A DNA stretch of 64,000 nucleotides. It comes from Hyunsoonleella flava. Its GTDB lineage: Bacteria; Bacteroidota; Bacteroidia; Flavobacteriales; Flavobacteriaceae. Positions 18,759-38,865 of this stretch are shown piece by piece. Within the stretch, counting starts at the first letter, position 1; each line of letters opens with the position of its first letter. The stretch covers positions 620,001 to 684,000 of the forward strand of contig NZ_SIRT01000001.1 of NCBI RefSeq assembly GCF_004310325.1, read 5' to 3'. The translations under genes and the position numbers were made by a program. The notes below the pieces were generated by a model. It was given only the letters and a program-made list of their open reading frames with translations, searched no databases and was not told where the DNA came from.

Positions 18759-19335
18759 ATTTATAGTTTTTAACTGTTTTCTAAGTATTTATACTTAATT
18801 TTTAAGCAAATATATAAGTACATTTAGATATACCCCATGTTAAACCCCATAAACACACCTCTTTTTATCCATAAAACAACCTGCTAAAACACAGATTCTA
18901 ATTACAACTAACTCATTACCAATAATTTTAAATGATTTTTTACACAGGTAGATTTACGTAAACTACTACGTATAAACATGCTAATGTTAATAACATTTTA
19001 CGTATGTTTTACTTAGAATGGGAAAGGTTGAACAGAAAATTGTGGATTTTTGTGATTGATACTACGTAGTTTTGCTATTTAAATGAACGTTTTATCTTTT
19101 GCTAAATATATCTGTAGGCCTTCTTGTTGAACATTTGGAATATAAGAAACTCGAAATGCTGATTTTGCATAAAATTGGAAGAGTGATGTGACAGGACAAC
19201 AAAAATTAAATAGGTTGTCTAAACTAAATTGTACATTTTCTGAAATTTAAAGTAAGTAATACAATATTGGTGAAAACCTTAAACTTTGTAATAAAAATTC
19301 TGAAATAAGTTATTAGTAACATATTTTGTGCTAAA
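18759..19335. other. Regulatory intergenic region upstream of the nrt-like operon
   Basis: A gap of 577 bases with no credible gene. It holds the palindromic operator at 18782-18797, and four TACGTA hexamers at 18955, 18967, 18999 and 19063. The last is inside the 10-base palindrome ACTACGTAGT. There is also a near-palindrome ATGTTA-A-TAACAT at 18984-18996. The region from 19100 to 19335 shows nothing recognisable. Genes on both sides run leftward, so it also receives the 3' end of the 416-residue gene. Confidence 0.6.
18782..18797. promoter_or_regulatory. Palindromic operator TAAGTA-TTTA-TACTTA upstream of nrtA-like gene
   Basis: Perfect inverted repeat with 6-base arms and 4-base spacer. 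It is 23 bases upstream of the ATG at 18758. The identical 16-base sequence occurs upstream of nirB at the same distance. The geometry (6-4-6) fits a Crp/Fnr dimer, and a Crp/Fnr gene is in the cluster. Confidence 0.75.
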
Positions 19336-20586
19336 TTAAAACTCCGGCAGTCCATCAATACTTGCTATTAATCCTTTAGGAATTGATTTAGTAGTTGATT
19401 TTTTAATTTTTTTTAGAAATCTGTCAAATGAATTTCTCATATCCGTAAAAAACTTCATTAAATATATGGCCTTTATATGTTCTGTTTGTTTTTGAAACCA
19501 TTCATCATCTATGAAGGTTTCTTTAAATGTCCGATTTAAAACCTTACAATCTTTATAAGGGAACCGTTTAAATAGTTCATTTATAAGAGCTTCATCGCGG
19601 TCCTTATTAGCCAGTATTAACCCTCCAGATGGAGGATATATAAACAATTGCCTATATCTAGGAGGCCCTCCACCTGAATCGCCGTATTCAATTGTAGTGT
19701 CTGTTATCAATATTCGTTCCTTTTTAACATCATATAAATTTAATGGTAAAACAATTGACCAAATCATAGCTGATAGTTTTAAATCTAATTGTAACGATTC
19801 AAATTTATTATTAAGTTCTAATATATTATTGTAGACTTTTAACCATTCCTTGATTTCTAATCTTAGGTTAATTTTAGGTTTGTAAAAAACTAAATTTGAC
19901 TCCTTATCTTTTATTTCTGGATCAAAAAAAGCAGCTGGTATATAGACTTTTCCATTTTTGATAATTTTTACATATCGTTTGATATCATTCACTGCATTAC
20001 CACATATTTCTTTATAGTATTCAGAGATTTTTTTCATAATCTCTGTTGCCTCATAAATTCCTGGTTCGTGATTTGCACTTACGAAACTGGAATAATTCTT
20101 TATGTGGTTTAGAGAATGCTTACCAAGATCATTAGCAATATTTGTCAAAGCAGTAGAAGTTCTTTTACCAAGAAATTCTTCTATTGTTTTATCCCAACTT
20201 ACCTCAAGACCGCTTTTTAGGGGCACCCTTGACACATGGGATAAAGGCGGCAACAATGGCCTTGTTTTGGGTGCTTTTGAAGCAAATTCAAGTTTAATTT
20301 TCTCTGTCCAAACTGTAGTCCTGAGCAATGCCGAAACCCCTTTCTTTAAAACCTGTCCAAATAAATTATTGATAATTAATGTTGAAATGAAATCAGTCCA
20401 AAAACCACCACTTTTTTTAGAATTAATTAGGCTAGCATACCTTGCATCGTGAACTTTATCTTTTGTTGCCAAAACCTTTAAAATTGCCCAAACTGGTTCT
20501 AAACTTAATTTTCCTTTCAAAACTTGAAATTGATTTATACAATTTTCAAGAGTATCAATTAACTCTTCATTGTTATTCTCACTCAA
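19336..20586 (-). CDS. Unrecognised 416-residue protein of the two-gene cassette
   Basis: I do not recognise this protein. It is soluble-looking, with no signal peptide and one weakly hydrophobic stretch (about 58-72, FWTDFISTLIINNLFGQ). The start is TTG at 20586, since no Met follows until well inside the protein. The N-terminal third looks helical, followed by a beta-containing middle (KNGKVYIPAAFF) and a Gly/Pro segment YGDSGGGPPRYRQLFIYPP at about 320. The C-terminus is Lys-rich. It begins 13 bases after the end of the 1107-residue gene and is almost certainly co-expressed. Base composition is like the neighbours. Confidence 0.7.
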   Translation of the reverse strand: MSENNNEELIDTLENCINQFQVLKGKLSLEPVWAILKVLATKDKVHDARYASLINSKKSGGFWTDFISTLIINNLFGQVLKKGVSALLRTTVWTEKIKLEFASKAPKTRPLLPPLSHVSRVPLKSGLEVSWDKTIEEFLGKRTSTALTNIANDLGKHSLNHIKNYSSFVSANHEPGIYEATEIMKKISEYYKEICGNAVNDIKRYVKIIKNGKVYIPAAFFDPEIKDKESNLVFYKPKINLRLEIKEWLKVYNNILELNNKFESLQLDLKLSAMIWSIVLPLNLYDVKKERILITDTTIEYGDSGGGPPRYRQLFIYPPSGGLILANKDRDEALINELFKRFPYKDCKVLNRTFKETFIDDEWFQKQTEHIKAIYLMKFFTDMRNSFDRFLKKIKKSTTKSIPKGLIASIDGLPEF

Positions 20587-20599
20587 AATATCAAAAATT

Positions 20600-23923: not shown

Positions 23924-24029
23924 AAGAACTATTGTTAAAAATTACCATAAAAGCCTAGATAGAGATATTGTTTAGATAAACACAAGTCTATCAACATGTT
24001 AAGTTCGGTTTTTTCTACAGAAAAAACAA

Positions 24030-24045
24030 TACGTACTTGTACGTA
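24030..24045. promoter_or_regulatory. Operator-like palindrome TACGTA-CTTG-TACGTA
   Basis: It has the same 6-4-6 geometry as the TAAGTA-N4-TACTTA sites, with the half-site changed at one base (TACGTA for TAAGTA). The response-regulator site at 31366 is a hybrid of the two half-sites, which links both forms. It lies 106 bases upstream of the ATG of the 1107-residue gene. Confidence 0.5.
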
Positions 24046-24124
24046 GTTTTAAAAAAAATACAAAAATTAAGGGTTTAAATAACTTTGTAATCTAAAACAA
24101 TACATATAGAAATCCAAGTTTTCT

Positions 24125-24183
24125 TGTCGCAGCGCTCCTCATAATGATACTAGCAAACATAACTGCATTAGGGATTGCAGCGA
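24125..24183. repeat. Inverted repeat with ends TTGTCGCAGCG and TTGCAGCGACA
   Basis: The two ends pair over TGTCGC-x-GC. Read on the minus strand, the right end gives GTCGCTGCAATCCCTAATGC, which resembles GCCGCTGCAATCCCTAACGC at the end of the dispersed repeat at 359-531. It may be a diverged or partial relative in the opposite orientation. Confidence 0.5.
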
Positions 24184-24354
24184 CACCATTTATGTAGAGT
24201 ATTTAGTAGTTAAAGATTATATGAATGCTGGATGACTTAAACTGATGAGATCCTGAAATGAGTTAGGTAAGATGTGAGAAAAGATATATCAGAAAGTCTC
24301 ACCAAACTGGACAAACCCCCTGATAAATAGTATTTAGGCAAGTAATAAGAACAA

Positions 24355-25092
24355 TCAACTATCTAAAAAGTAATTATGGTCGTCGATTTCCTTTTTAAGG
24401 GTATCAATGCTGATAATCCCAATCTTCCTGCCACTTGCTGAAATGAGTTTTTCTTTTTTGAGTGCTGAAAATACACGAATAACTTGCTCCTCGGTAGTGC
24501 CAGCGTAGTCAGCATACTCCTTTCTACTAAGTGGTAAATTTATAAATCCTCTTAAGTCCCCAAACTTACGATGAATGTACAATAAGGAATCAATAACGCG
24601 CTCACGCACCGTCATTTGTGAGATAGATTTCACCTTGTTTTCACTTCGGTTAAGCTCGTTGGCATAAAACAGCATCATATCATAAGCGAACTTAGGGTTT
24701 GCCAATAAGGTTTCCCTAAGGTGTTCTTTCGAAAAATAATGCAGTTTTGTATCCTGTAAGGCTATGGCGCCAATGGAATAAAATTCTTGTGTACCAAAGC
24801 CACGGTGACCAATAATCTCACAGGGTTTCGCAAAGCGTACGATTTGCTCACGACCATTAATCCCTGTCCTAAATACTTTTACGGTACCACTTTTAATGAA
24901 AAAAAGTCCGTTTACCGGCGCACCTTCCATAATAAATTGCTGCCCTTTTTTACATTTTAAAACAGTGTTGTGCTTTTGTAAATTGGAACTAAAAAGTGCT
25001 TTGTTGTGGTTATGAATAAAACAATTAGGATTGTTACAAGTGCTACATAGGGTATCAGATTTGGTTTTATATGGTGTATTTATGAGACTCAA
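24355..25092 (-). CDS. Crp/Fnr family regulator with N-terminal cysteine cluster
   Basis: This 245-residue regulator has a cyclic-nucleotide-binding-type beta-roll (about 38-130), a dimerisation helix (about 132-165) and a winged helix-turn-helix (about 187-232, LPLSRKEYADYAGTTEEQV). Cysteines C16, C19 and C24 form CxxCxxxxC before the beta-roll, with further cysteines C47 and C91. Fnr-type sensors hold a [4Fe-4S] cluster with a similar N-terminal set plus one internal cysteine, so redox or NO sensing is possible. The recognition helix (TTEEQVIRVF) differs from Fnr's ETISR pattern. The start is TTG, with a perfect 11-base-arm palindrome 33 bases upstream of it if only the TAAGTA core is counted. 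Confidence 0.88.
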   Translation of the reverse strand: MSLINTPYKTKSDTLCSTCNNPNCFIHNHNKALFSSNLQKHNTVLKCKKGQQFIMEGAPVNGLFFIKSGTVKVFRTGINGREQIVRFAKPCEIIGHRGFGTQEFYSIGAIALQDTKLHYFSKEHLRETLLANPKFAYDMMLFYANELNRSENKVKSISQMTVRERVIDSLLYIHRKFGDLRGFINLPLSRKEYADYAGTTEEQVIRVFSALKKEKLISASGRKIGIISIDTLKKEIDDHNYFLDS

Positions 25093-25120
25093 AACATTAA
25101 AATAACTTATTTGTCTGTCT

Positions 25121-25146
25121 AAAATTAAGTAATAATACTTAATTTT
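25121..25146. promoter_or_regulatory. Palindromic operator upstream of the Crp/Fnr gene
   Basis: The core TAAGTA-ATAA-TACTTA lies at 25126-25141, and the arms extend perfectly to 11 bases on each side (AAAATTAAGTA / TACTTAATTTT). It lies between the rubredoxin-tailed gene end (25165) and the Crp start (25092). The core is 33 bases before the start codon, suggesting autoregulation. Confidence 0.75.
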
Positions 25147-25164
25147 AATAATTCTAGATAATTT

Positions 25165-26604
25165 TTAGGAGTTTCTTAAAATTTGAAAGGCTTTCTTCCG
25201 AAAACTACTTTTTGGTGCTTCACAAATTGAACATTCGTAAGTTTCTGGCAAATTTTCAAAATGTGTATTGGGAGGGATATCTTGTGTGATATCTCCATAG
25301 ACTTCGCTATACACCGTTAAACATTCCGAACACTGATACACTTCCTCTTCCTCGCTTTTTTTTGGCGTTTCAGGCAACGTCTCTTTTTCTTTCTCAACGC
25401 CTAATTGCTCAAAATATAATTTACTCAATTCCATTAGCAATCCTGGAAGCTCCACCATATCTACATCTTGAACGTGCATGATATATTCACGTGTATTGGG
25501 ATCAAAGTCTTTGGCATGAAGTAAGTTATAGGTATCTCGAATTTTAAAAACACCATTAACTTGAGGTGGCCTGTTTTTTTCAATGACTATGGACGTAAAA
25601 TTGTAAGTATCGCTATCGTAGCTTGTAATTCCAAACGTTAAGCCGTAGGTGCTGATATCGTTTTGATCGAAATTAGTGACCAAGTACTTTTTTAAATTCA
25701 ACGCTTCTTTGTCGTTTACAGGTACGTGCCAATTCATTTCCAGCATAGAATGCCGTACGTTGATACCGAATTTGCCCAAAAGCTTTTCCCATTGCAATTT
25801 GTGTTTTGCAGGAATTCCTTTTACGATAAAGGACTTCCATGGTGTGATGGAAATTTTACCTATTTTATTCTCAGAACATAAATCGCACATCGCCTTTAGA
25901 AACTTCAAATCATAACGATTATTTCTCCAATATAGCCCTAACCAATAGCGATCTGTACCTATGCGATTCATCCCCTCATAATACGGAAATGGGTAAAATG
26001 GTACTTTTAATGGCTTGTCAACCGTTCTGTTATTGGTTTCAACAGCATCATTGACTAAATCAAATACCATTTCAACGGTTTCAGGTTCTTCAATCAGAAT
26101 ATTTTCAATGGCTTGTTCTACCTTGTCCATATCCCAACTGTAAATTAATGCAGGATACATTTTAGTGTCCTGCCAACTAGGAAGTCTTAAATATAAATAC
26201 CAATAGTCTTCATGCCTTGAAGCAATAAAGTTCACGTTTCCTGTAAACAAAGGCACTAAGCGTTGTTTAGGATCTATAACATTAATTCTAAGTTTTGGAT
26301 TGTGTTTAAACTGCTCTAAAACATATAGATACCTATCACTAGTTAACCAAGAGGTACTAGGTAAAATATCTGAAGACACATACGATGACGCTATATTTTC
26401 TACACCATCTCGCTTAGGTTTTACAAATTGTATTTTATCAAATTGACTAAACTTACTTTCATCTATTTCCTCTGGAAAAATAATGTCTTGTCGTGATCCA
26501 AAAGAAATGGCATCCAACCCTAAACCTTCAGCAGCTTCACAAATGTATTTTAATTCTCCTGACGATAATACACCACCGTTTATCATTAATCTGTATGGTT
26601 CCAT
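25165..26604 (-). CDS. Sulfite/nitrite-reductase-like protein with C-terminal rubredoxin domain
   Basis: This is a 479-residue protein. The body has ferredoxin-like half-domains resembling siroheme sulfite/nitrite reductases (MINGGVLSSGELKYICEAAE near the N-terminus), but I do not see the paired CxxxxxC and CxxxC motifs that hold siroheme-[4Fe-4S], so it may not be catalytic. The C-terminus at about 425-467 is a rubredoxin domain: CSEC, then about 30 residues, then CSIC. Its start overlaps the stop of the nitrate reductase gene by one base (TAATG), giving tight translational coupling. It probably passes electrons to the assimilatory nitrate reductase; this is inference. Confidence 0.8.
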   Translation of the reverse strand: MEPYRLMINGGVLSSGELKYICEAAEGLGLDAISFGSRQDIIFPEEIDESKFSQFDKIQFVKPKRDGVENIASSYVSSDILPSTSWLTSDRYLYVLEQFKHNPKLRINVIDPKQRLVPLFTGNVNFIASRHEDYWYLYLRLPSWQDTKMYPALIYSWDMDKVEQAIENILIEEPETVEMVFDLVNDAVETNNRTVDKPLKVPFYPFPYYEGMNRIGTDRYWLGLYWRNNRYDLKFLKAMCDLCSENKIGKISITPWKSFIVKGIPAKHKLQWEKLLGKFGINVRHSMLEMNWHVPVNDKEALNLKKYLVTNFDQNDISTYGLTFGITSYDSDTYNFTSIVIEKNRPPQVNGVFKIRDTYNLLHAKDFDPNTREYIMHVQDVDMVELPGLLMELSKLYFEQLGVEKEKETLPETPKKSEEEEVYQCSECLTVYSEVYGDITQDIPPNTHFENLPETYECSICEAPKSSFRKKAFQILRNS

Positions 26605-29600
26605 TATGCTAATACTTTTGAATTTTGAAGTATCTCTCTAACTTCTGTTTTACAACTACCACAACCTATACCTGCACCTGTTTTGTTACATAATTCTGTA
26701 AAATCTGTGCAGCCTTGAGCGATAGTTTCTTCTATATTACCCTGCCCTACTTGGCTACAAGAACACACCAGTTTTCCTATAATAGGCGCATCATTAGAAG
26801 CCCCTCTAAGCAATGAATTTCGCTTATCGGCCATTTCAATTTTGCTCTCAATCATGGTTTTAAATTCGGCAAATTCGTTTTTGTCCCCCATTAAAACGGC
26901 ACCAATCAAAAGATCATCTTTTACAATACATTTTTTATAGTAACGTTTCTTGATATCTGTAAAAATAATTTCTTCGTAGCTATCGTCATGCTCAGGTACG
27001 CTAATATCTCCAATGCTACATAAGTTCAAATCGTTAAACTTTAAAATGTTCATTAATACTGAACCATTATATGAGCTACTAACATCTCCTGCAATAAAGT
27101 TGGCTAAAATATTGGCCTGTTCTTCTGCTGCTGATGTAATTCCGAATAATTGATTATTAAATTCTGCTATCTCTCCGATTGCAAAAATATCGGGATGCGA
27201 AGATTGTAAATGTTGATTTACCTTAACACCCCTACTGCACGCAATACCGTTTACTCTTGCAATATCCACATTAGGAATTGTACCAATAGCATACACAATA
27301 GCATTGGCTGTTATATATTTTCCACTTTTTAAAGTGATGTTTAATTCGCCAGTGTCTTCATCATCAAACACCGTACTTACTTCATTATCAAAATAAATTT
27401 GAATACCACGTTCTTGTACATCTAAAGCCAATAATTTACTAGATACTTTATCTAACTGACGCTCCATTAAACGTGATGCACGCTGTATAATGGTAATTTT
27501 AGCGTTTTTATGCTTCATTGCTGCAGCTAGTTCCAAACCAAGTAAACCACCGCCGACAATTACTACATGCTGTTCTTCTGGAGGAAGTCCCGTAGCATCT
27601 AAATGCTTCTTAAATTTATCGGCATCAATTTTATTTCGCATGGTAAAACGTCCTGGTAAATCTATTTGCACATCTTTTGGCACAAAAGCACGACTACCTG
27701 TTGCTAGTATGAGTTTATCAAAACTATGATTACCACCATTACTATCTGTAACTGTTTTAGCTGTTTTATCAATTTTAGTAATGTAAGTTTCGGGATGCAA
27801 ATGTATATTTAGCTTATCAAGTTCTGCTTTTTTAATTTTTAAAAGCTGTTCCCATGATAATTCTTCTGTAACATATTCTGGAAGTAATACCCTATTATAA
27901 AACAGATTAGGTTCTTTTGAAAATACATGTATTTCGTCCGTTTCATTTTGCTCGCGATAATTTTGAACAAAACGAAACGCCGCAGCACCTGCACCTGCAA
28001 TGATAATTTTTTCTGCCTGTTTCTTGTATTTTGAAACTATAACACGTGTAAACTTAAAATCTGGTTCTTTTGAAGTTGGATCTACATGCGTATTTGTTAA
28101 ATTATTGGTGCGGTTTAAATTACTCTGCAGTTGTTTACCCCAATGCATTGGCAAGAATACAACGCCTTTTTTAATATTTTCGGTAACGCTTGCACGCACT
28201 CTAACTTCGCCATTCTCACTTTTTATCTCTGTGATATCGCCATCTTTTATTTTGTATAAATAGGCGTCTACTGGATGAATTTCTAAAACAGGAGTAGGAT
28301 AATGTGTTTTTAAACGTGACACCTTACCAGTTTTCGTCATAGTGTGCCACTGGTCTCTTATTCTTCCTGTTGTTAAAATGAGTGGATAGCTAGCATTCGG
28401 TAATACCGATGTATTAATAATTGATGTAGGTACGTTGAATTTAGCTTTTTGAGAAGGCGTATAAAACTTTTTATCTTCAAACAATCTAGAGGTTCCTTGA
28501 TGTCTGTGCTCTGGTACAGGCCATTGAAATGTACCTTCATTTTTAAGCCTATCGTAGTTTAAGTAAGATACATCTATATTGGTACCTTTAGTCATAGAGG
28601 CGTACTCATCATAAATCTCACTAGCACTATTAAAATCAAATCCTCTAAAGCCCATACGTTGTGCGAAATCGCAAAAGATTTCAACATCTGGTCTAGCTTC
28701 TCCAGGAGCTTCAATTTCCTTTGGTAAGTATGAAATTCGCCTTTCGGAATTTGTCATTGTACCTTCTTTCTCTAACCACGCCGCAGCAGGAAGCACCAAA
28801 TCTCCGAAAGCTACGGTATCAGATTTATGAGATATATCTTGAACCACAACAAACTTAGCGTTTTTCATGGCTTTTTCTACACGATTTAAATTTGGTAAAC
28901 TCACGAGTGGATTAGTACAAGCTATCCAAACGGCTTTCATTTTTCCACTTTCTAAAGCATCAAACATTTCAGTAGCCGTTAGTCCGGGTTTCGGGTTAAT
29001 TTGATCTACACCCCAAAACTGGGCTACTTCTCGCCTATGCTCTTCATTCATTAAATCTTTATGAACCGCCAAAAGGTTTGCCATTCCTCCTACTTCGCGC
29101 CCTCCCATGGCATTAGGCTGTCCTGTTAATGAAAAAGGACCTGCTCCTGGTTTTCCTACTTGTCCTGTGATTAGAGATAGGTTTAATAGCGATACGTTCT
29201 TATCCGTTCCTACCACACTTTGGTTTAAACCCATGGCCCACATACTGATAAAGCCTTTTGAAAGTCCGATAATATCAGCAGCTTTACGTATATCTTTTTC
29301 TGGTACGCCACATAATTTTGAAGCCTGTTTCAATGAGGTTTTAAAGATTAAATCTTTATAATCTTGAAAGCCTTCAGTATGATTTTTAATAAAATCTTCA
29401 TCAATTAAACCACGTTTATACAAGCATCTTCCAATGGCATTGTAAAGCATAACATCGGTTCCTGGTAGTAGTTGTAAGTGTATATCTGCAAAATTAGCTG
29501 TATCCGTTTTTCTAGGGTCTACAACTATAATTTTAATATCTGGATTTTCCTCTTTATGTTTTTCTAATCGTCTAAATAAAATAGGATGACACCATGCTGG

Positions 29601-30125
29601 GTTTGCCCCAGTAATTAAAAATGTATCTGCTAATTCAATATCAGCATAAGAAATAGGTACACTATCTTCTCCAAACGTTTTTTTGTAACCTACCACAGCA
29701 GAACTCATGCATAAGCGCGAATTTGTATCTATATTATTTGTACCTAAAAAACCTTTGGTGAGTTTATTAGCGATGTAGTATTCTTCGGTTAAACTTTGTC
29801 CGGAAACATAAAATCCAACACTATCTGGACCGTGTTTTTTTATTATCGATTTAAAAACGCTCGCAGCTCTATCTAAAGCATCATCCCAACTTACACGTTC
29901 TCTAGGATGAGACCTACTCCAGCGCATTTCAGGATATAAAATTCTATCGGAAGTATCATTAGCTACATAATGCAAATTCATGCCTTTAGAACATAACATG
30001 CCTTTGTTTACAGGATGATCCTTATCCCCCTCAACAAATACTTGGTTATTGGCATCTTTCTTAACAATGATTCCACAGCCAACTCCACAATATGAACAGG
30101 TAGTTTTTACTTCGCTTTTTATCAT
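26604..30125 (-). CDS. nasA: Fused assimilatory nitrate reductase: molybdopterin, FAD and BFD domains
   Basis: This 1173-residue protein joins three modules. Residues 1-about 665 are a NasA/NapA-type molybdopterin oxidoreductase, with [4Fe-4S] ligands C10, C13, C17 and C45 and a probable Mo-ligand C139 in NSRLCMSS. Residues about 683-1090 are an NAD(P)H:FAD disulfide-oxidoreductase-type module (IIIAGAGAAAFRF and IVGGGLLGLELAAAM). Residues about 1115-1165 are a BFD-type [2Fe-2S] domain (CSCSQ and GCGSC). Nitrate to nitrite reduction in the cytoplasm with NAD(P)H as donor is the expected role. No Tat signal is seen. The symbol follows the catalytic part; the fusion combines functions often split between nasA/nasC and nasB. 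Confidence 0.9.
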   Translation of the reverse strand: MIKSEVKTTCSYCGVGCGIIVKKDANNQVFVEGDKDHPVNKGMLCSKGMNLHYVANDTSDRILYPEMRWSRSHPRERVSWDDALDRAASVFKSIIKKHGPDSVGFYVSGQSLTEEYYIANKLTKGFLGTNNIDTNSRLCMSSAVVGYKKTFGEDSVPISYADIELADTFLITGANPAWCHPILFRRLEKHKEENPDIKIIVVDPRKTDTANFADIHLQLLPGTDVMLYNAIGRCLYKRGLIDEDFIKNHTEGFQDYKDLIFKTSLKQASKLCGVPEKDIRKAADIIGLSKGFISMWAMGLNQSVVGTDKNVSLLNLSLITGQVGKPGAGPFSLTGQPNAMGGREVGGMANLLAVHKDLMNEEHRREVAQFWGVDQINPKPGLTATEMFDALESGKMKAVWIACTNPLVSLPNLNRVEKAMKNAKFVVVQDISHKSDTVAFGDLVLPAAAWLEKEGTMTNSERRISYLPKEIEAPGEARPDVEIFCDFAQRMGFRGFDFNSASEIYDEYASMTKGTNIDVSYLNYDRLKNEGTFQWPVPEHRHQGTSRLFEDKKFYTPSQKAKFNVPTSIINTSVLPNASYPLILTTGRIRDQWHTMTKTGKVSRLKTHYPTPVLEIHPVDAYLYKIKDGDITEIKSENGEVRVRASVTENIKKGVVFLPMHWGKQLQSNLNRTNNLTNTHVDPTSKEPDFKFTRVIVSKYKKQAEKIIIAGAGAAAFRFVQNYREQNETDEIHVFSKEPNLFYNRVLLPEYVTEELSWEQLLKIKKAELDKLNIHLHPETYITKIDKTAKTVTDSNGGNHSFDKLILATGSRAFVPKDVQIDLPGRFTMRNKIDADKFKKHLDATGLPPEEQHVVIVGGGLLGLELAAAMKHKNAKITIIQRASRLMERQLDKVSSKLLALDVQERGIQIYFDNEVSTVFDDEDTGELNITLKSGKYITANAIVYAIGTIPNVDIARVNGIACSRGVKVNQHLQSSHPDIFAIGEIAEFNNQLFGITSAAEEQANILANFIAGDVSSSYNGSVLMNILKFNDLNLCSIGDISVPEHDDSYEEIIFTDIKKRYYKKCIVKDDLLIGAVLMGDKNEFAEFKTMIESKIEMADKRNSLLRGASNDAPIIGKLVCSCSQVGQGNIEETIAQGCTDFTELCNKTGAGIGCGSCKTEVREILQNSKVLA

Positions 30126-30291
30126 TTCAAACCAACATTTTACACTAATTACTATATTTTATTTTTCGAAAGCAAGCACTAACTTTATTATTCTGAATAC
30201 CGTAAAAAAGACCTTTTAAATTTTAGATTTGATAAAAACCACATATAAAATTAATATTTAATGCAACAGAACATTAGCACACTTACAAATC

Positions 30292-30307
30292 TAAGTATTA
30301 ATACTTA
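30292..30307. promoter_or_regulatory. Palindromic operator TAAGTA-TTAA-TACTTA upstream of nitrate reductase gene
   Basis: Perfect 6-4-6 inverted repeat, 166 bases before the nitrate reductase ATG at 30125. The distance is much greater than at the other sites, so the transcript may have a long leader. Confidence 0.7.
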
Positions 30308-30607: not shown

Positions 30608-30666
30608 TGTTTAATAAGGTTTATGAAATAATCTTTGTATTGTCTCAAAAATGAATTATTTTTCGG

Positions 30667-31332
30667 CTAAACCAACCCAAACTCCTTAGCCTTATCGGTC
30701 AATTCTTTCAAATTAGAAACCTCTAATTTTTTCATCAAATTAAAACGATGTACCTCGGCAGTACGTTTGCTTATTTTAAGTTCGTCTGCAATATCCTTAT
30801 TATTTTTCAATTCTAAAACCAAGTCCAAAATTTGCTTTTCGCGTTTGGTAAGATTGAACGGATCTACTTTGGGTGCAGGCTTTGGTGCTACCGCAACGTT
30901 TGTATTACCATTCACAAAATTATTCATGATAATTGCCGAAATATCTCCGGTGAAATATTTACCTCCAGAAGCTACTTTATTTAGGGCTTTTATAAATTCC
31001 TCTTTACTAGCTCCTTTTAATAAATAACCATCTGCACCTGCTTGAATGGCTTGCACTACGTATTCTTCAGAGTCATGCATAGAAAGCACTAAAGTTTTAA
31101 CATCAGAGCCAGATTTGTTGATTTCTCCAACAACCTCAATACCTGTCATTTCTGGCATTCTAATATCAACTATTAGCACATGAGGTTTATTTTTACTAAT
31201 AACCTCTAAAGCCTCTTTTCCGTTAGACGCTTCATCTATAACGTCTATGCCTTTTTGGTCTTCAAGAAGTGCTTTTATACCGTCTCTAACCAAAATATGA
31301 TCGTCCGCTAATACAACATTAATTTTATCCAT
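30667..31332 (-). CDS. NarL/NreC-type LuxR-family response regulator
   Basis: This is a 221-residue two-domain regulator: a receiver (1-120) with acidic pocket D10/D11, phospho-acceptor D56 in LIVDIRMP and the conserved LLKGAS lysine, and a C-terminal LuxR helix-turn-helix (about 155-215, LTKREKQILDLVLE and ISKRTAEVHRFNLMKKL). The nitrate-type histidine kinase at 33257-35071 is its likely partner, although a cytochrome and a RidA gene lie between. A one-mismatch copy of the cluster operator lies 33 bases upstream of the ATG. Confidence 0.9.
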   Translation of the reverse strand: MDKINVVLADDHILVRDGIKALLEDQKGIDVIDEASNGKEALEVISKNKPHVLIVDIRMPEMTGIEVVGEINKSGSDVKTLVLSMHDSEEYVVQAIQAGADGYLLKGASKEEFIKALNKVASGGKYFTGDISAIIMNNFVNGNTNVAVAPKPAPKVDPFNLTKREKQILDLVLELKNNKDIADELKISKRTAEVHRFNLMKKLEVSNLKELTDKAKEFGLV

Positions 31333-31365
31333 ACGTAATCATTGTGCGTTTCAAAGGTACTAAAA

Positions 31366-31381
31366 TAAGTAATATTACGTA
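31366..31381. promoter_or_regulatory. Imperfect operator TAAGTA-ATAT-TACGTA between response regulator and cytochrome genes
   Basis: One mismatch from the TAAGTA-N4-TACTTA palindrome. It is 33 bases before the leftward response regulator ATG and 108 bases before the rightward cytochrome GTG, so it could serve either. A TACGTA also overlaps the regulator start codon at 31332-31337. Confidence 0.55.
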
Positions 31382-31489: not shown

Positions 31490-32740
31490 GTGATAAAAAA
31501 GGGAATTCTAGCGGTTTTTATTTGTGCAGTGATTACAGTGCTCTATGTATATCAACAAAAGAGCACTTATAATTATGAGTACTTTTCTGTTGGACAAGAT
31601 TTAGAACACCATAACGGACTTAAATTTGCAGGGTCTGAAGCCTGTATTAGCTGTCATGAAGATATTTACAAACAGCACATGACTTCTGCACATTTTTTAA
31701 CTTCTACCATGGCTACAGATACTACTATCAAAGGTATTTATGAAGCCAATAACAATAAACTCAAGATAGGAAAACATCATAGTTTTACAATAAATGAAAA
31801 ACAAGATGGCTTTTATCAAACGCTGAAAAATGACAGTTTAAATACCATTGAAAAAGAACATAAAATTGATATGGTTATCGGTTCTGGTGTAAAAGGACAA
31901 TCATATTTTAGTTGGCAAAAGGATAAACTGTTTCAGCTACAAACATCATATTTTGTACCCACTAAGCAATGGATAAATAGTCCAGGATATAAAGAACATA
32001 CTATTGCAAAGCCTAGACCAATTTCTGTTAGTTGCTTAGAGTGTCATGCTACTTTTGCAAAAACAACTGCGAGCAGTGAAACTAAGTATGAACTTTCAAA
32101 ACGCAGTATGATTTTAGGCGTAGATTGTGAAAGGTGTCATGGGCCAGCTAAAAAACACGTGGAGTACCAAAACAAATTCCCAAATGACACGATAGGAAAA
32201 CATATTGTTAAACAAAGTCAATTATCGCGACAGCAAAAAATGGATATGTGTGCCTTGTGCCATTCAGGATCTAAAACAAAAGCGCCAAATAAAGAATTTC
32301 ATTTTGTTTTGGGCGATACGCTTGACAATTACTTAGTTAAGGATTTTAGAGATTATTACAGAGCAAAATATAAATCGAAATTAGATGTTCACGGCAATCA
32401 AGTAGAACTTTTAGAAGCTAGTAAGTGTTTTCAAAAAACTGAAACGATGGACTGCAATACCTGCCACAGTCCACATAGCAATGAAAGAGGCAATTTAAGT
32501 ATGTTTAATGCTAAATGCATAAACTGTCATACGCATCAAAATATTGAATGTGGATTAACCGAGGTTGCTGATATGCAAACCAAGAATAATTGTATCGATT
32601 GTCACATGCCCATGTTAAAGTCTAACTCTTTAAAAATTCAAAATGAAAGTGGCTTGGTTCAGGTTAAAGTTCGCAGTCATTTTATATCCATAAATCAGAC
32701 ATCAAAAAGTAAAATAAATCAATACATTGATAGTTTATAA
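31490..32740 (+). CDS. Seven-heme cytochrome c (cytochrome c554-like)
   Basis: This is a 416-residue exported or membrane-anchored protein. It has an N-terminal hydrophobic segment (about 5-20) and seven CxxCH heme sites at about 52, 182, 213, 254, 322, 343 and 368. The start is GTG at 31490, as the next Met is far inside. The pattern of single early heme and clustered later hemes resembles the cytochrome c554/doxx-type multiheme family. It lies divergent to the response regulator inside the nitrate cluster, so nitrite or NO chemistry, or electron transfer, is possible but unproven. Confidence 0.85.
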   Translation: MIKKGILAVFICAVITVLYVYQQKSTYNYEYFSVGQDLEHHNGLKFAGSEACISCHEDIYKQHMTSAHFLTSTMATDTTIKGIYEANNNKLKIGKHHSFTINEKQDGFYQTLKNDSLNTIEKEHKIDMVIGSGVKGQSYFSWQKDKLFQLQTSYFVPTKQWINSPGYKEHTIAKPRPISVSCLECHATFAKTTASSETKYELSKRSMILGVDCERCHGPAKKHVEYQNKFPNDTIGKHIVKQSQLSRQQKMDMCALCHSGSKTKAPNKEFHFVLGDTLDNYLVKDFRDYYRAKYKSKLDVHGNQVELLEASKCFQKTETMDCNTCHSPHSNERGNLSMFNAKCINCHTHQNIECGLTEVADMQTKNNCIDCHMPMLKSNSLKIQNESGLVQVKVRSHFISINQTSKSKINQYIDSL

Positions 32741-32819
32741 TAGTGATAGCTTAGGTACTTCTTGGTATTACAGCTATAGTGATGCAACTATAGCTTAAAA
32801 GACCATAACTATTAATAAA

Positions 32820-33200
32820 TTATGATTTTAGAGCCGTGACTTGAATTTCTATTTTCATATTACTGTCAGCTAAACCAGCAGAAAACATTGTAGCAGCAGG
32901 TTTGATGTTACCTAAGTATTTCTGAAGTACTGGCCAGCATTTTTCAAATTCTTCAGCATCAGGTAATATATAGGTTATCCGAACGATATCAGACAAACTA
33001 GCATGTGCTTGCTCTAAAGTATGCTTTATGTTTATCATGCATTGTTCTGTTTGTTGAACAACATCATCACTGATAGTCATTGTTCGATAATCATATCCAG
33101 TTGTTCCTGAGACAAATACCCAATTACCTTGAACTACTGCTCTAGAATACCCTATTTTTTCTTCAAATGTAGAGCCTGAACTTATTAATTTTCTTTTCAT
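32820..33200 (-). CDS. RidA family protein
   Basis: This is a 126-residue YjgF/YER057c/UK114-type protein. RidA members hydrolyse reactive enamine/imine intermediates made by PLP enzymes. Family features are KIGYSRAVVQGNWVFVSGT near the N-terminus and the C-terminal KIEIQVTALKS. The conserved arginine near 105 that binds the substrate carboxylate in canonical RidA is not evident (KPAATMFSAGL), so the activity may differ. It sits between the cytochrome and the histidine kinase genes and is transcribed with the kinase direction. Confidence 0.82.
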   Translation of the reverse strand: MKRKLISSGSTFEEKIGYSRAVVQGNWVFVSGTTGYDYRTMTISDDVVQQTEQCMINIKHTLEQAHASLSDIVRITYILPDAEEFEKCWPVLQKYLGNIKPAATMFSAGLADSNMKIEIQVTALKS

Positions 33201-33256
33201 TGTTAACGTAAAATTTTGAGATGTCGAGACATGCTCAGAATAGTAACAAGCGACTT

Positions 33257-35071
33257 TTATTTTAGCGGGATGTTTAAAGTAACTCGAGTACCTTTACCTT
33301 TTTCAGAAGTTAAAAATAATCGACCATCTATATATTTTATGCGCTCTTGCATAAACGTCATGCCCATACCGCCATCTCCTGTTTTTATCTTTCGTACTTT
33401 ATCAGGATTAAAGCCCTTACCATTATCATCTATTACAACACTTAGCATGTTTTTACTATGAGACAAAGACACTATAATATGAGTAGACTCAGCGTATTTT
33501 ATAGCGTTATTAATAGCTTCTTGAGCTATTCTATATATATTAATTTCTGAGAGCGAATCTAGTCTTTGATTAAAATCGGTTTTATTAAAAAGCACAATTT
33601 CTTTACCTGTTAACCTACCTAACTCATGTGCTAATTTAGTTAATGCTGGTACAATACCATGATCTGTTAATTCTGGTGGTGTTAAATTAAATGTTGCTGT
33701 TCTTACACCTTTGATAATATTTGATGTCAACTCTTTTAAATGCTCAATTTTAGCAGTGGCCTTTTTTACATCTTTAGTATCAATACTTTCTAGATTATAC
33801 TTTAAACCCGTTAACATTTGCCCTATACCATCATGTACGTCTTTAGCAATACGATTTTGTTCTTTTTCTTGGTTTTCAATAATCTTACTAGAAATGATTT
33901 TTTGTTGACTCATCTTCTCCTCAAAACTCTTTTCCGTTAAGCGATCGATTTCCAATTGTGCAGACTTTCTTTCTGTGATTTCTGAAGCAATAATGAGTAA
34001 TTCTGATCGCTCTTCGGTTGCGTTAAAAGGGATTACAGCCATTTCTAGCCAAATATCTTCATTAGGTTTTGTTGTACCTTTTACTTCACCTTGCCATCCG
34101 GTTTTCTTATATTTAGTTATAATATTCTCAATAGCTTCTTGTTCATTTTCTTTATGCGATAGTACATTCCAAAATAATTCAGCATTATTAAACTTAGAGA
34201 AACTAAATAAATGTGAGAACTTATTGCCAATATGAACCATGTTGCCGGAGGGTGTGATTCTTGCAAATAAAAGTGTATCATCCATCGCTCTGGTTAAAGC
34301 ACTCAACTCCTGTATGGATTTTTCCTTGGCTTTGCTCAATTCGTCTGCATCAAACGCCATTTTTTTCGCCCTTCTCTCCGCAGATAATAATTTTTTTAAA
34401 GTGTATCTAACCGATTTTGCTGCTGGCCAAAAGATAAATAAAAACTCGCCCAAGAGAATCAACAATGTCAGTGACGTAAGCCATAATTCCAAATTGCCTA
34501 ACCAGGCTACTTTAGCTTCTGCTTCTTTTTCATATTGATTAACAATAGCATCCATTTGTTCTAGAAATTCACCTTCATAAGCTTTTACTTTTTCAATATC
34601 AGCTACATACTCCTGTAAAAATAAAGACGGGTTATCATCAATTCTACTAATGATACGTTTTGAAGCAGAACTCACCGAATCAAAAACAGGATTCAAAACC
34701 CTAAATTTCTGAGCTATAATCTTACTATTATCTCTAGGCAAACCCAAACTATCATTACCTTGTTGTAATGCATGATGTGATAGTTCCCACAAATTTAGCG
34801 TCTCTTTCAGATTCTGTTTAATAGCATTTCTTTTGTCTGTTTGCGTTAAAGTTAAAAGCGCAACAACATCCTTAGTCAATTTTTGACTTAGCATACGTTG
34901 CCTCCCGGCTACATTTATAACTTTAGAATCACTTTTTTGGCCACTAAGATGGTTTCTAATTAAGATCTGGCTTATAATTACAGAAAGTGCAATAGTACTA
35001 AAGCCAATAATATACAAACGGCGTAGTTTATCAAAAGTCCGCTGGTCTAATGAGTTGCCGTTTTTTGCCAT
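33257..35071 (-). CDS. Histidine kinase with PilJ/NarX-type sensor and PAS domain
   Basis: This is a 604-residue kinase: TM1 (about 20-38), a periplasmic PilJ-type four-helix sensor with VAGRQRMLSQKL near 54-65, TM2 (about 196-217), a PAS domain (about 255-370), then a HisKA_3 dimerisation domain with phospho-acceptor H413 (DVHDGIGQ) and a HATPase domain with DDNGKGF and GMGMTFMQERI. NarX/NarQ use a related N-terminal module with a P-box to bind nitrate, so this is probably the nitrate sensor for the NarL-type regulator at 30667. The gene starts 12 bases downstream of the DUF4202 gene. Confidence 0.88.
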   Translation of the reverse strand: MAKNGNSLDQRTFDKLRRLYIIGFSTIALSVIISQILIRNHLSGQKSDSKVINVAGRQRMLSQKLTKDVVALLTLTQTDKRNAIKQNLKETLNLWELSHHALQQGNDSLGLPRDNSKIIAQKFRVLNPVFDSVSSASKRIISRIDDNPSLFLQEYVADIEKVKAYEGEFLEQMDAIVNQYEKEAEAKVAWLGNLELWLTSLTLLILLGEFLFIFWPAAKSVRYTLKKLLSAERRAKKMAFDADELSKAKEKSIQELSALTRAMDDTLLFARITPSGNMVHIGNKFSHLFSFSKFNNAELFWNVLSHKENEQEAIENIITKYKKTGWQGEVKGTTKPNEDIWLEMAVIPFNATEERSELLIIASEITERKSAQLEIDRLTEKSFEEKMSQQKIISSKIIENQEKEQNRIAKDVHDGIGQMLTGLKYNLESIDTKDVKKATAKIEHLKELTSNIIKGVRTATFNLTPPELTDHGIVPALTKLAHELGRLTGKEIVLFNKTDFNQRLDSLSEINIYRIAQEAINNAIKYAESTHIIVSLSHSKNMLSVVIDDNGKGFNPDKVRKIKTGDGGMGMTFMQERIKYIDGRLFLTSEKGKGTRVTLNIPLK

Positions 35072-35083
35072 ATTCTTTAATTT

Positions 35084-35668
35084 TTAAGATATAGCCTGCT
35101 TTACTAAAGCTAAAGACTTTTCAGAAAAATTCAGTTTTAGAGCTTCTTTTTGGCCGTCTTCACTCATTTTTACCCAAGTTTTTTGAAGAATGTCGATTAC
35201 CTTTTCATCGGGATGTTTTTCAGCAAATTCCTCAAAATAGTAGTCTAAAAACACCAAACAGATGGTATCTTCTAGTGCTTGGGATTCTTCATTTTTTTTG
35301 ATGAGTTTTTTTAAGATTATTTTTCTGATTCTATCAACAAAAATATCATCGTAACCTACTTGTCGTAAAATATCTTCGGTTAAATCTGCATGCATTTTTT
35401 TTAAGGTTTCACGCCATTTTAAATAACCTACACGGTCCATGGGATACTCATCCCTAGCTATTTTCCAGCGGCAAATATGTTGTGCTCTTGCTGCGATTTG
35501 CAGTGCTTTAGATGCATCTGGTTTAAATTGCAACAACTTCCGTGTCATACGTTGGGAATACAATAACTCTTTTGGATATTGTATGCCTGCAACATCGTAA
35601 GTGTTTATATCTTCAGAATTAGCTTTATCTATAAGCGCAATAGCGGTTTCAAAACGTGTGGGCTTCAT
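35084..35668 (-). CDS. DUF4202 domain protein
   Basis: This 194-residue soluble protein belongs to the DUF4202 family by overall length and the motifs AARAQHICRWKIARDEYP and GYLKWRETLKKMHAD, with a conserved CLVFLDYYFEEF near 140. The His and Asp spacing (HICRW... and later KKMHADL) suggests a metal-binding helical fold like HD proteins, but this is inference. It starts the leftward operon with the histidine kinase, immediately behind nirBD, so a link to nitrogen metabolism is likely; no function is established. Confidence 0.82.
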   Translation of the reverse strand: MKPTRFETAIALIDKANSEDINTYDVAGIQYPKELLYSQRMTRKLLQFKPDASKALQIAARAQHICRWKIARDEYPMDRVGYLKWRETLKKMHADLTEDILRQVGYDDIFVDRIRKIILKKLIKKNEESQALEDTICLVFLDYYFEEFAEKHPDEKVIDILQKTWVKMSEDGQKEALKLNFSEKSLALVKQAIS

Positions 35669-35807
35669 GATTAACTTTAGTATTAAATTCTATGTAAGCC
35701 AAGATACACAATTACACTTTTTTATTATGTGGTAGATTTTGGAATTTTTATTTGGTCGGACAAATTTATTTTCATTTTAAATTAAACTTGCAGTAAATAA
35801 AGCAACT

Positions 35808-35885
35808 GCGGTAAAATGAAGAACATTCAAAATTCGTCTTAGTAATTTAATAACCTTTGAATATTAGTTCTTCATAAATTACCGC
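35808..35885. repeat. Inverted repeat GCGGTAA...ATGAAGAAC / GTTCTTCAT...TTACCGC downstream of nirD
   Basis: The left arm is 35808-35824 and the right arm 35867-35885; they pair over two blocks (GCGGTAA/TTACCGC and TGAAGAAC/GTTCTTCA) with a 2-base offset. The loop is about 42 bases. It lies just beyond the nirD stop and could be a 3' hairpin protecting or ending the nirBD transcript. Confidence 0.55.
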
Positions 35886-35905
35886 ATGCTTTTGTAAATT
35901 TTAAT

Positions 35906-36283
35906 CTATTCTGTAAAACCCACATATACATGACCGTCTTCAATTTTTACAGGATACGTAGCAATAGCACCTAAATCTCCATTTAAATTTTCACCATTTT
36001 CCAACGAAAATGTTTTTTTATGCAACGGACAAGCAACTTTAGGAATACCCTTATCATCACCAATCATACCTCTACTTAAAACCATTTCCATTTTATGTGG
36101 GCATAAGTTTTGGCAGGCATACCACTTCGCTATTCTTGCAAAATTGAATACTGCAATTTGCTTATTCTTGTATTTTATACAGGCTCCTCCATCTTGAGGA
36201 AAATCTTCAACTGATGCCGCTTTAAACCATACCTTGACGTCTTCTAGGTTTGTTGTGCAATATTTATCAAGAATTTCTACCAT
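35906..36283 (-). CDS. nirD: Nitrite reductase small subunit with Rieske-type ligands
   Basis: This is a 125-residue NirD-like protein, partner of NirB in NADH-dependent nitrite reduction to ammonium. Unlike E. coli NirD, which lacks cluster ligands, it retains a full Rieske pattern: C61-x-H63 (CPH) and C85-x-x-H88 (CPLH), so it probably binds a [2Fe-2S] cluster. It starts 26 bases after the end of nirB and is transcribed with it. Confidence 0.9.
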   Translation of the reverse strand: MVEILDKYCTTNLEDVKVWFKAASVEDFPQDGGACIKYKNKQIAVFNFARIAKWYACQNLCPHKMEMVLSRGMIGDDKGIPKVACPLHKKTFSLENGENLNGDLGAIATYPVKIEDGHVYVGFTE

Positions 36284-36309
36284 TTTATTTTGTTTTTAAT
36301 GTTGACTAC

Positions 36310-38826
36310 TTATACCCAAGGTTCAGGCATTTTTTGGTCACGCATTGGGACGAAAACCAGATTATCATCTTCCTCTTTACTATTTACAAAGTGATTGAAA
36401 CGCTTCATCATTTCAGGATCATTAACAGCTTGTGTCCACTCACATTCAAACTTATTTACCAGAGTTTGCATTTCTTTTTCTAAATCCTCTGCAATACCCA
36501 ATTTATCGTTAATAATTACGTCTTTTAAATAGTCTAGCCCACCTTCCAATCGTTCTTGCCATGCGGCAGTACGTTGTAAAGGTTTAGCAGTTCTCATGTA
36601 AAACATTAAATATCTGTCTAAATACTTAATTACCCTTTCGTTATCTATTTGTTCAGCAAATAATTCTGCATGTCTTGGATTTGCACCACCGTTTCCACCA
36701 ACATATAAGTTCCAGCCACCCTCAACCGCAATTAAACCAAAATCTTTTCCTCTAGCTTCGGCACACTCTCTAATACATCCAGACACTCCGCCTTTAATTT
36801 TGTGAGGCGCACGGATACCTCTGTAACGGTTTTCTAATTCGATACCAAAACTTACACTTTCGTCCATCCCGTATCGACACCATGTAGAGCCCACACAAGT
36901 TTTTACGGTTCTTAAGGATTTACCATAAGCATGCCCACTTTCAAAACCATGACTTATTAATTCTTTCCATATTAATGGCAACTGATTTAAAGTAGCACCA
37001 AATAAATCAACGCGAACACCACCTGTAATCTTAGTATATAAATCGTATTTCTTAGCAATTTCACCTAAAGCAATTAGCTTGTCTGGTGTGATTTCTCCTC
37101 CTGGAACACGCGGTACAACAGAATACGTACCATTACGCTGAATATTAGCTAAAAATCTATCATTTGAATCTTGGATAGCATACTCTTTATTTGCAGTATC
37201 TGCATGAATAGTCGCCATTAATGAGGCTATAAGTGGTTTACATAATTCGCAACCATGACCCCCGTTTCCGTGGTTATCCAATACTTCATTAAACTTGGTA
37301 TAACCTTTTACTTCTATAATTTTATATAAATCCTGCCTGTTATAATCAAAATGCTCGCAAACTGAATCTTTAACTTCAATACCAAGAGCCTTAAGTGTTG
37401 CATTGGTTAAATCTGCGACCATAGGTTTACAACCACCACAACCTGTACCTGCTTTGGTACAACCTACTACACCTGCTAAATCTGTAGCTTCCCCACTTTC
37501 TATAACACCACAAATTTGTCCTTTTGTAACGCTTTCACATGAGCATACTTGGGCTTCATCAGGCAAATCGGTTACGTCACCAAAAGACGCTGCGCCATCA
37601 CTAGCGGGTAAAATTAATTGAGATGCGTCTTCTGGAATTTTCATACCATTCAAGTACATCTGATGTAACATGTTATAATCTGATGCATCACCAACCAATA
37701 TGCCTCCAAGAAGTTTTTTACCATCAAGACTTACATTAATTCTTTTATATAAATGTTGTGTTTTATTTTCAAAAATGATGGAATGTCCTTTTGATGCAGG
37801 CATAAATGGCTCACCAAAACTAGCCACATCTACTCCAATTAATTTCAATTTAGTAGACATATCAATATCAGATGGCATAATAGCATCATTTTCGGCTAGA
37901 ATTTGTTTTACAGCAATATCAGCCATATCATAACCCGGAGCTACTAAACCATATATCATTTGGTTATAGAGTGCAATTTCGCCAATAGCATAAATGCTGT
38001 CATCTGAGGTTTTCATGGTGTTATCAACAATAATTCCTCCTCTAACTCCAACTTCCAACCCGCATGCTCTACCAAGTTCATCCCGTGGTCTAATACCTGC
38101 TGAAATGATGAGCATATCAACATCTAGTATATCGTCTTCACCAAACTCCATTCCCGTAATACTGCCATTACCTAGTATCTGGTTGGTTGCTTTGCTCAAA
38201 TGAATATTTAAACCAATAGATTCTAATTTCAATTTTAAAACCTGTGAACTTCTAGAATCTAATTGTCGTGGCATTAACTTAGGAGCCAACTCCACAATAT
38301 GAGGCTCTAACCCCATATCCATAACGGCTTTACCAGCCTCTAAACCCAATAAACCACCACCTAAAACAGCAGCTTTAGCATTAGGTTTTTCAGTTTTTAT
38401 CTTTTCAGCATAAGCCATCATGCCTTCTAAATCTTCAATAGTTCTATAAACGAAAACACCTTCTTTCTCAACCCCTTTTATTGGAGGTACAAAGGGAGAA
38501 GATCCTGTGGCTAGCACCAAATAATCGTATGCAAATTCTCTATCCTTTGCTGTAGTTATTATTTTTTCTGCCCTATTTATATCTGAAACGCGTTCGCCAG
38601 TAACTAATTCTATTCCATGCTCTGCATACCAGCTAGCAGGGGCCATCTCTAAGGCCTTTGCATCTTGATTTTCAAAATATTCACTCAAATGAACTCTATC
38701 ATAAGCTGGTCTTGGTTCTTCTCCAAAAACAGTGATCTTAAAACCAATACTTGCTGCATTAGCCACAAATTTTTCACAAAATTTATAACCAACCATTCCA
38801 TTTCCAACTACAATAATTTGTTTCAT
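36310..38826 (-). CDS. nirB: Nitrite reductase (NADH) large subunit
   Basis: This 838-residue protein matches NirB in length and order: NAD(P)/FAD oxidoreductase (1-about 390, GNGMVGYKF and LGGGLLGLEAG), a BFD-type [2Fe-2S] domain (VCSCESVTKG and TGCGGCKP, about 418-470), a second CxxC-containing stretch (GGHGCELCKP), and a siroheme-[4Fe-4S] nitrite reductase domain with CVGSTWC and GCIREC. It reduces nitrite to ammonium in the cytoplasm. Its start codon has the operator TAAGTATTTATACTTA 23 bases upstream, identical to the nrtA-like site. Confidence 0.95.
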   Translation of the reverse strand: MKQIIVVGNGMVGYKFCEKFVANAASIGFKITVFGEEPRPAYDRVHLSEYFENQDAKALEMAPASWYAEHGIELVTGERVSDINRAEKIITTAKDREFAYDYLVLATGSSPFVPPIKGVEKEGVFVYRTIEDLEGMMAYAEKIKTEKPNAKAAVLGGGLLGLEAGKAVMDMGLEPHIVELAPKLMPRQLDSRSSQVLKLKLESIGLNIHLSKATNQILGNGSITGMEFGEDDILDVDMLIISAGIRPRDELGRACGLEVGVRGGIIVDNTMKTSDDSIYAIGEIALYNQMIYGLVAPGYDMADIAVKQILAENDAIMPSDIDMSTKLKLIGVDVASFGEPFMPASKGHSIIFENKTQHLYKRINVSLDGKKLLGGILVGDASDYNMLHQMYLNGMKIPEDASQLILPASDGAASFGDVTDLPDEAQVCSCESVTKGQICGVIESGEATDLAGVVGCTKAGTGCGGCKPMVADLTNATLKALGIEVKDSVCEHFDYNRQDLYKIIEVKGYTKFNEVLDNHGNGGHGCELCKPLIASLMATIHADTANKEYAIQDSNDRFLANIQRNGTYSVVPRVPGGEITPDKLIALGEIAKKYDLYTKITGGVRVDLFGATLNQLPLIWKELISHGFESGHAYGKSLRTVKTCVGSTWCRYGMDESVSFGIELENRYRGIRAPHKIKGGVSGCIRECAEARGKDFGLIAVEGGWNLYVGGNGGANPRHAELFAEQIDNERVIKYLDRYLMFYMRTAKPLQRTAAWQERLEGGLDYLKDVIINDKLGIAEDLEKEMQTLVNKFECEWTQAVNDPEMMKRFNHFVNSKEEDDNLVFVPMRDQKMPEPWV

Positions 38827-38849
38827 AATTACGTATTTGAAAACAAAAC

Positions 38850-38865
38850 TAAGTATTTATACTTA
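38850..38865. promoter_or_regulatory. Palindromic operator TAAGTA-TTTA-TACTTA upstream of nirB
   Basis: Perfect 6-4-6 inverted repeat, 23 bases before the nirB ATG, identical in sequence and spacing to the site before the nrtA-like gene. TACGTA hexamers flank it at 38830-38835 and 38893-38898. Confidence 0.75.

Follow-up and report, generated by a model that had tools for sequence, protein, structure and literature searches.

The palindrome TAAGTA-N4-TACTTA, which recurs upstream of nitrate-related genes in the window (the whole 64,000-nt stretch of DNA analysed here), quite probably represents the operator of a nitrate-responsive two-component system of Bacteroidota, to which a NarL/FixJ-type response regulator would bind. 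This assignment rests on direct observations, namely the sites themselves and how they are conserved, how they co-occur with the regulator and how far they lie from the motif TAnnTTTG. For the control of nitrate use in many Flavobacteriaceae and relatives, it supplies a testable set of operator, regulator and targets. No published regulon with this palindrome as operator was recognised in the literature searched, whose coverage excludes most subscription journals, and the initial annotation, which knew of no such regulon, stands within that scope.

The mechanism that we infer comprises binding, phosphorylation and nitrate as the signal, together with the -7 boxes themselves. The membrane kinase would use a NarX/NarQ-type pocket to sense nitrate or nitrite and would phosphorylate the NarL/FixJ-type regulator, a dimer of which would bind the inverted repeat TAMGTA-N4-TACKTA, combining the 7-2-7 layout of NarL sites with a FixJ-like half-site. 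The operator would be situated at or just upstream of a presumed -7 box in front of the nirB operon (kinase gene included), the nasA/transporter operon, crp and the response-regulator gene, and just downstream of a presumed -7 box at nrtA. The regulator would thereby switch nitrate uptake and reduction as well as its own synthesis.

Occurrence and conservation of the palindrome

Re-scanning the window returned four exact copies of TAAGTA-N4-TACTTA and one copy with a single mismatch, TAAGTAATATTACGTA, at the positions originally claimed (Table 1). The spacings claimed at the same time were also recovered, the nrtA and nirB sites being identical and both ending 23 bases from the ATG, and the crp and response-regulator sites ending 33 bases from the start, with TTG used as the crp start. 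The nasA operator lies about 166 bases from the nasA start codon. The initial annotation had allowed that the motif might prove common genome-wide; the exact count in the 3.8-Mb genome is four, every one inside the window, with a single match for the reversed-pattern control. Relaxing one base per half (A or C at the third base) gives the extended pattern TAMGTA-N4-TACKTA, for which eight matches are observed in the genome, six of them within the window, compared with three for the control. Allowing up to two mismatches was not informative in the window (14 matches versus a shuffled mean of 8.2, with 14 reached in 8 of 100 shuffles) and revealed no enrichment in the whole genome (343 versus 590 for the control). 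A wider regulon was therefore not built from a degenerate scan.

One extended match, TACGTACTTGTACGTA at 24030, was left out as an operator, its N4 being unlike the others. The same 16-mer recurs on contig 61 as part of a 28-bp stretch of 93% identity, and the copy in the window (24030-24045) precedes an open reading frame of 1107 aa that has no Pfam match. Another extended site, at genome position 594184, follows closely after an open reading frame of 249 aa, one of two in that 3-kb locus. Directly past the nirB operator, the window contains tRNA-Pro(tgg) and tRNA-Ser(gct) (39085-39264).

Table 1. Operator sites, presumed -7 boxes and genes of the cluster, in window coordinates.
Feature	Position	Strand	Remark
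nrtA operator, TAAGTATAAATACTTA (coding strand)	18782..18797	-	Downstream of the presumed -7 box
Presumed -7 box of nrtA, TATATTTG	18807..18814	-	Read from the sequence
Operator of the crp/fnr-like gene	25126..25141	-	Box after the operator reads TAATTTTA
Operator upstream of nasA	30292..30307	-	Right end shared with presumed -7 box TAGATTTG (30286-30293)
Response-regulator gene operator, TACGTA variant	31366..31381	-	Presumed -7 box TACCTTTG at 31352-31359
nirB operon operator	38850..38865	-	Last TA is the TA of presumed -7 box TAGTTTTG (38844-38851)
nirB, nitrite reductase large subunit	36310..38826	-	NCBIfam above cut-off
nirD	35906..36283	-	Rieske_2
DUF4202 protein	35084..35668	-	Between nirD and kinase
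Sensor kinase	33257..35071	-	PilJ-type sensor, HisKA_3, HATPase_c; PAS below cut-off; proposed partner kinase
NarL/FixJ-type response regulator	30667..31332	-	Pfam Response_reg and GerE; proposed binder
nasA, molybdopterin oxidoreductase, nitrate-reductase-like	26604..30125	-	Fused to NirB-like NADH module
NIR_SIR_ferr half domain and C-terminal rubredoxin protein	25165..26604	-	Abuts nasA
Crp/Fnr-like regulator	24355..25092	-	Proposed target rather than conserved binder
nrtA-like substrate-binding protein	17367..18758	-	SsuA family match, below cut-off
nrtB-like permease	16125..17231	-	TIGR01183 ntrB match, below cut-off
Two ABC ATPase genes, nrtC/D-like	14189..15872	-	
Outer-membrane protein, Alginate_exp match	12751-14043		End of nrt cluster

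The name nasA is used here for a protein with which the NasC/NasA and formate dehydrogenase models all score below cut-off, and the Crp/Fnr-like protein returned weak matches to the Fnr, FixK and NtcA models. The outer-membrane protein is possibly a nitrate porin. A relative of the NIR_SIR_ferr/rubredoxin protein lies beside nasA in many loci. A divergent multihaem cytochrome-like gene (31490-32740) is found beside the response-regulator gene, with a 67% identical copy in one relative (L111). Relatives of the outer-membrane protein, ∼40-46% identical, carry the operator in Leeuwenhoekiella and Algoriphagus loci.

Conservation was followed in a family sample of 120 genomes of Flavobacteriaceae, each from a different genus. 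The exact palindrome is present in 52 of these, often clustered, with 88 sites in the 24 regulator-bearing genomes (control 39) and 43 in the 96 others (control 74). Eleven exact matches in genomes lacking the regulator were inspected and treated as chance, six lying inside open reading frames. Regions were fetched around the regulator, crp and motif clusters (40 regions) and around other matches (20 regions), and sites at short distance recur before nirB, nrtA, crp, the response-regulator gene, a gene of ∼470-475 aa and a 137-aa gene beside crp. All 24 nirB-bearing family genomes have an exact match to the extended pattern before nirB. A further 80 named loci, retrieved by means of the response regulator, widen the range of the operator to Leeuwenhoekiella, Salegentibacter, Flavobacterium and Algoriphagus; the last belongs to the order Cytophagales, outside Flavobacteriales, and also has the nirB site.

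Upstream regions of 150 bases were pooled, the later nirB re-scan covering up to 250 bases. Exact sites were observed upstream of nirB in 106/120 regions, nrtA in 24/29, crp in 33/46, the response-regulator gene in 39/118 (54/118 with up to one mismatch), nasA in 30/98 and the outer-membrane gene in 19/60, the rate in shuffled upstream sequence being at most 0.0009. Some genomes were fetched twice among the 120 nirB regions; 116 remain after removal of duplicates and 102 of these are exact. In genome G082 the nirB site lies 117 bases from the start used. Sites were absent from the operon-internal upstream regions of nirD (0/119), DUF4202 (0/108), the kinase gene (0/104) and nrtB (0/27), and exact sites from those of the rubredoxin protein (0/79), the ATPase genes (0/23 and 0/21) and ridA (0/18, one with a one-mismatch site).

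Several relatives have the ∼470-475-aa gene between site and nasA, with the site 23-28 bases before this gene. All seven of the encoded proteins tested match the NarK family best, at 294-312 bits with a cut-off of 311.7, one scoring above it. This NarK-type transporter gene, preceded by a nasA-type site in relatives, is absent from the window. The scan of related flavobacterial genomes suggested with the initial annotation thus finds the motif before nrtA, nirB, crp and nasA/NarK-type transporter orthologues, and conservation supports the regulon of nitrate genes sharing this palindrome as operator that had been proposed. One locus (L110:9021-9434) contains, next to crp, a globin gene (137 aa) that has a separate operator 31 bases ahead of its start; genes of similar size, with a site at ∼31-46 bases, lie beside crp in several relatives, and no globin gene beside crp was seen in the window.

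That the sites are merely chance palindromes in AT-rich DNA would be compatible with the lack of genome-wide enrichment of the two-mismatch form. All four exact genome copies are nevertheless confined to one 20-kb stretch, and the extended nirB site is exact in every one of the 24 genera, compared with the shuffled rate given above. Conservation already refutes a chance origin, which retains virtually no probability.

Co-occurrence of the site with Crp/Fnr and with the response regulator

The initial annotation considered the Crp/Fnr-like protein the likeliest binder, so that this protein would bind the palindrome and control the cluster. The crp gene carries a site and sits in the cluster, it accompanies nrtA in 26 of the 29 fetched loci that contain nrtA, and the spacing of the palindrome is also compatible with a Crp/Fnr dimer. 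Like the Crp/Fnr regulators of nitrogen-oxide metabolism (HcpR, DNR and NnrR) and NtcA, the cluster has palindromic sites at nitrogen genes, but the HcpR motif has a different half-site. Distribution of the two regulators was compared using thresholds of at least 52% identity for Crp orthologues, paralogues reaching at most 37% with a gap between, and at least 50% identity for response-regulator orthologues. In the family sample, the response regulator and nirB occur in the same 24 of 120 genomes, and the site follows the regulator in all 24. A Crp orthologue is present in 19 of these and missing from five.

Crp status was also searched in 48 genomes reached via the 80 named regulator loci, of which 25 possess Crp and 23 do not; at least two of the 48 (L188 and L195, both Crp-bearing) also belong to the family sample. 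In 18 further named loci, outside the 48 genomes, crp was seen inside the locus. Among the 24 Crp-bearing named-locus genomes whose nirB start lies in the locus, 23 have an exact nirB site and one a site with one mismatch; the twenty-fifth locus (L173) does not include the nirB start. The exact extended pattern before nirB is retained in all 28 Crp-lacking genomes (5 from the family sample and 23 from the named loci), which indicates that the site does not need Crp. The operator, unlike those of the known Crp/Fnr nitrogen-oxide regulators, persists without the Crp gene, and the choice of Crp/Fnr as binder is not supported and appears very unlikely. The crp gene is most likely better read as a target of the regulon than as its conserved binder.

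In a phylum sample of 395 genomes, 26 further nirB-bearing genomes were found, 15 of which have the response regulator at ≥50% identity. The nirB site is present at up to one mismatch in 14 of these 15, and at up to two mismatches in none of the ten nirB genomes without the regulator. These ten have no response regulator at threshold, or one at 36-41% identity elsewhere in the genome, and belong to other families, such that ancestry is confounded with absence of the regulator. Two genomes have only a two-mismatch candidate site, one with a regulator of 50% identity (G343) and one with a regulator of 40% identity beside nirB (G354). Counted genome-wide, extended sites point the same way less clearly. 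They number 140 versus 73 for the control in the 28 Crp-lacking genomes, all of which bear the response regulator, a modest excess; 22 genomes exceed their own control and six do not. In the ten genomes lacking the regulator the count is 13 versus 15, and one of these (G413) has seven scattered sites versus none for the control. In three genomes (G157, G159 and G161) the four sites all fall inside an 18-kb span.

The same co-occurrence would be compatible with another regulator of equal phylogenetic range binding the site, the response-regulator gene being merely one of its targets, and nothing observed favours this directly. In the majority of the 80 named loci the response-regulator gene is close to nirB or nasA, and its recognition helix and the half-site agree with the FixJ pair described below, both of which argue against such a regulator, which we consider improbable.

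The response regulator, its recognition helix and the proposed partner kinase

The proposed binder consists of a receiver and a LuxR/GerE output domain, both above the Pfam cut-off (Response_reg and GerE). Its best PDB match is NarL (1a04), and it was also aligned to FixJ (1x3u). None of the NCBIfam equivalogs reached its cut-off, the scores being 140.3 bits versus 250 for NarL, 115 versus 343 for NarP and 93.1 versus 255 for FixJ. The recognition helix of the regulator in the window is KRTAEVHRFNLMKKL. The helix RTAEVHRFNLMKKL varies little over 113 unique regulator sequences and aligns with RTVEVHRANVMAKM of Sinorhizobium meliloti FixJ, RTxEVHRxN being common to both. The FixJ site at fixK is TAAGTAATTTCCCTTA and the SELEX consensus is GTAMGTAG (PMC4999443). 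The fixK site begins with the same half-site as the palindrome, TAAGTA, and both the recognition helix and the TAMGTA half-site of the present system match those of FixJ. A NarL site consists of two heptamers in inverted orientation with two bases between them, as in TACCCCTAAAGGGGTA from one assay (PMC4549865), and the 16-bp layout of the palindrome is the same 7-2-7 layout.

Variation in the helix is associated with variation in the site. Where the helix reads ETHR or EAHR, TACGTA halves make up 13/18, versus 39/180 with EVHR (Fisher p 2e-5, relatives being treated as independent), and replacement of V by T or A goes with a change of half-site from TAAGTA to TACGTA; TACGTA halves are frequent in some EVHR genomes too. 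Signs of autoregulation are present, as sites precede both the response-regulator gene and the operon carrying the kinase gene. Autoregulation is not universal, since an exact site is found in only 39 of 118 regions upstream of the regulator gene.

The kinase gene comes after nirB, nirD and DUF4202 in the same orientation and is therefore probably under the same operator. Its product has a HisKA_3 core and a PilJ-like sensor, in which the motif NVAGRQRMLSQ keeps the G-x-x-R pocket motif described for nitrate sensors (PMC8199190). The kinase thus carries the pocket motif of NarX/NarQ-type nitrate sensors, a motif that by itself is no proof of nitrate binding. The HAMP and GAF-like domains of proteobacterial NarX/NarQ were not found at E 0.001, and the NCBIfam equivalogs scored below cut-off (NarQ 99.5 bits versus 553, NarX 66.2 versus 578). 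Bacteroidetes are described as pairing narHK with narRR, the kinase being without HAMP and GAF domains (PMC8199190). The kinase of that pair resembles the one here in having the nitrate pocket without HAMP/GAF, with PAS in Flavobacteriales, and in lying near nitrate genes, and the kinase and regulator of the cluster are very probably the same gene pair. Gene order and architecture are given in PMC8199190; the operator and the regulon come from the present analysis.

The cluster is similar to NarX/NarL and NarQ/NarP of Escherichia coli in its G-x-x-R kinase, NarL-family regulator, 16-bp 7-2-7 repeat and nitrate and nitrite reductase targets. It differs in its half-site (TAMGTA rather than TACCCCT-like), the lack of HAMP/GAF in the kinase, the assimilatory type of the targets and the location of the operator beside or within the presumed Bacteroidota -7 box. 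With FixL/FixJ of S. meliloti it shares the helix RTxEVHRxN, the left half-site TAAGTA and a Crp/Fnr-type gene as target, fixK in that organism and crp here. The FixL/FixJ system responds to oxygen and controls nitrogen fixation, whereas a nitrate pocket motif and nitrate genes are found here, and the palindrome of the present system is complete and symmetric.

Spacing to the presumed -7 box and the sign of control

The -7 box of Flavobacterium johnsoniae, TAHHTTTG, is positioned at -12 to -5 and has virtually no G at -10, while AT-rich stretches at -18 and -28 stand out far more clearly than a -33 element (PMC6847099); in F. psychrophilum the box is TAnnTTTG (PMC9723704). At nirB, base 15 of the palindrome is the first base of a TAnnTTTG in 87 of the 102 exact sites, and the operator would consequently span -26 to -11. 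The motif starts at 23-26, mostly 24, in 31 of 35 response-regulator sites, at 15 (10/32) or 35-36 (13/32) in the exact crp sites, and at 15, 23 or 26 in 21 of 29 nasA sites. At nrtA the arrangement is reversed, TAnnTTTG lying 15-18 bases before the palindrome in all 23 exact sites, which would place the operator over the region after the transcription start. Directly upstream of the presumed nrtA box in the window is a further half-site TACTTA (18815-18820), part of a two-mismatch operator (18815-18830). Two aspects are weak points of the -7 box reading: G occupies -10 in 23 of the 87 nirB boxes, including that of the window, and likewise in the window's nasA box, and 12 of 19 exact sites at the outer-membrane gene have no TAnnTTTG nearby, the remainder being scattered.

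The spacings before nirB, crp, nasA and the response-regulator gene lie near steps of ten bases, which points to contact with polymerase on one face of the DNA and hence to activation. The same regulator could act with the opposite sign, sitting over the core promoter and repressing until the signal releases it, a reading whose probability is not far short of even. Nitrate kinases usually induce nitrate genes, which speaks against repression, as do the steps of about ten bases at the non-overlapping sites (the response-regulator gene and many crp sites), for which repression has no need. Repression would conversely fit the position of the sites, which cover the region from about -26 to -11 at nirB and at nrtA follow shortly after the presumed -7 box; NarL itself acts as a repressor of frdA by way of a 7-2-7 site close to the transcription start (PMC4549865). 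Combined, the arrangement of the sites suggests activation somewhat over repression. We tentatively propose, at appreciably less than even probability, that in Bacteroidota, whose -33 promoter element is little evident, the response regulator activates from inside -26 to -11, with the TA of the -7 box forming part of its site, or from ∼1-2 helical turns further out. Such activation, if true, would be a geometry not typical of NarL/FixJ-family activators. The spacing to the presumed -7 box also offers a way into the question of how regulators work at the unusual Bacteroidota promoters.

Overlapping operators, with three half-sites ten bases apart, are observed upstream of crp in L255 and L258 and upstream of nasA in L258 and L261, one self-complementary TACGTA serving both operators.
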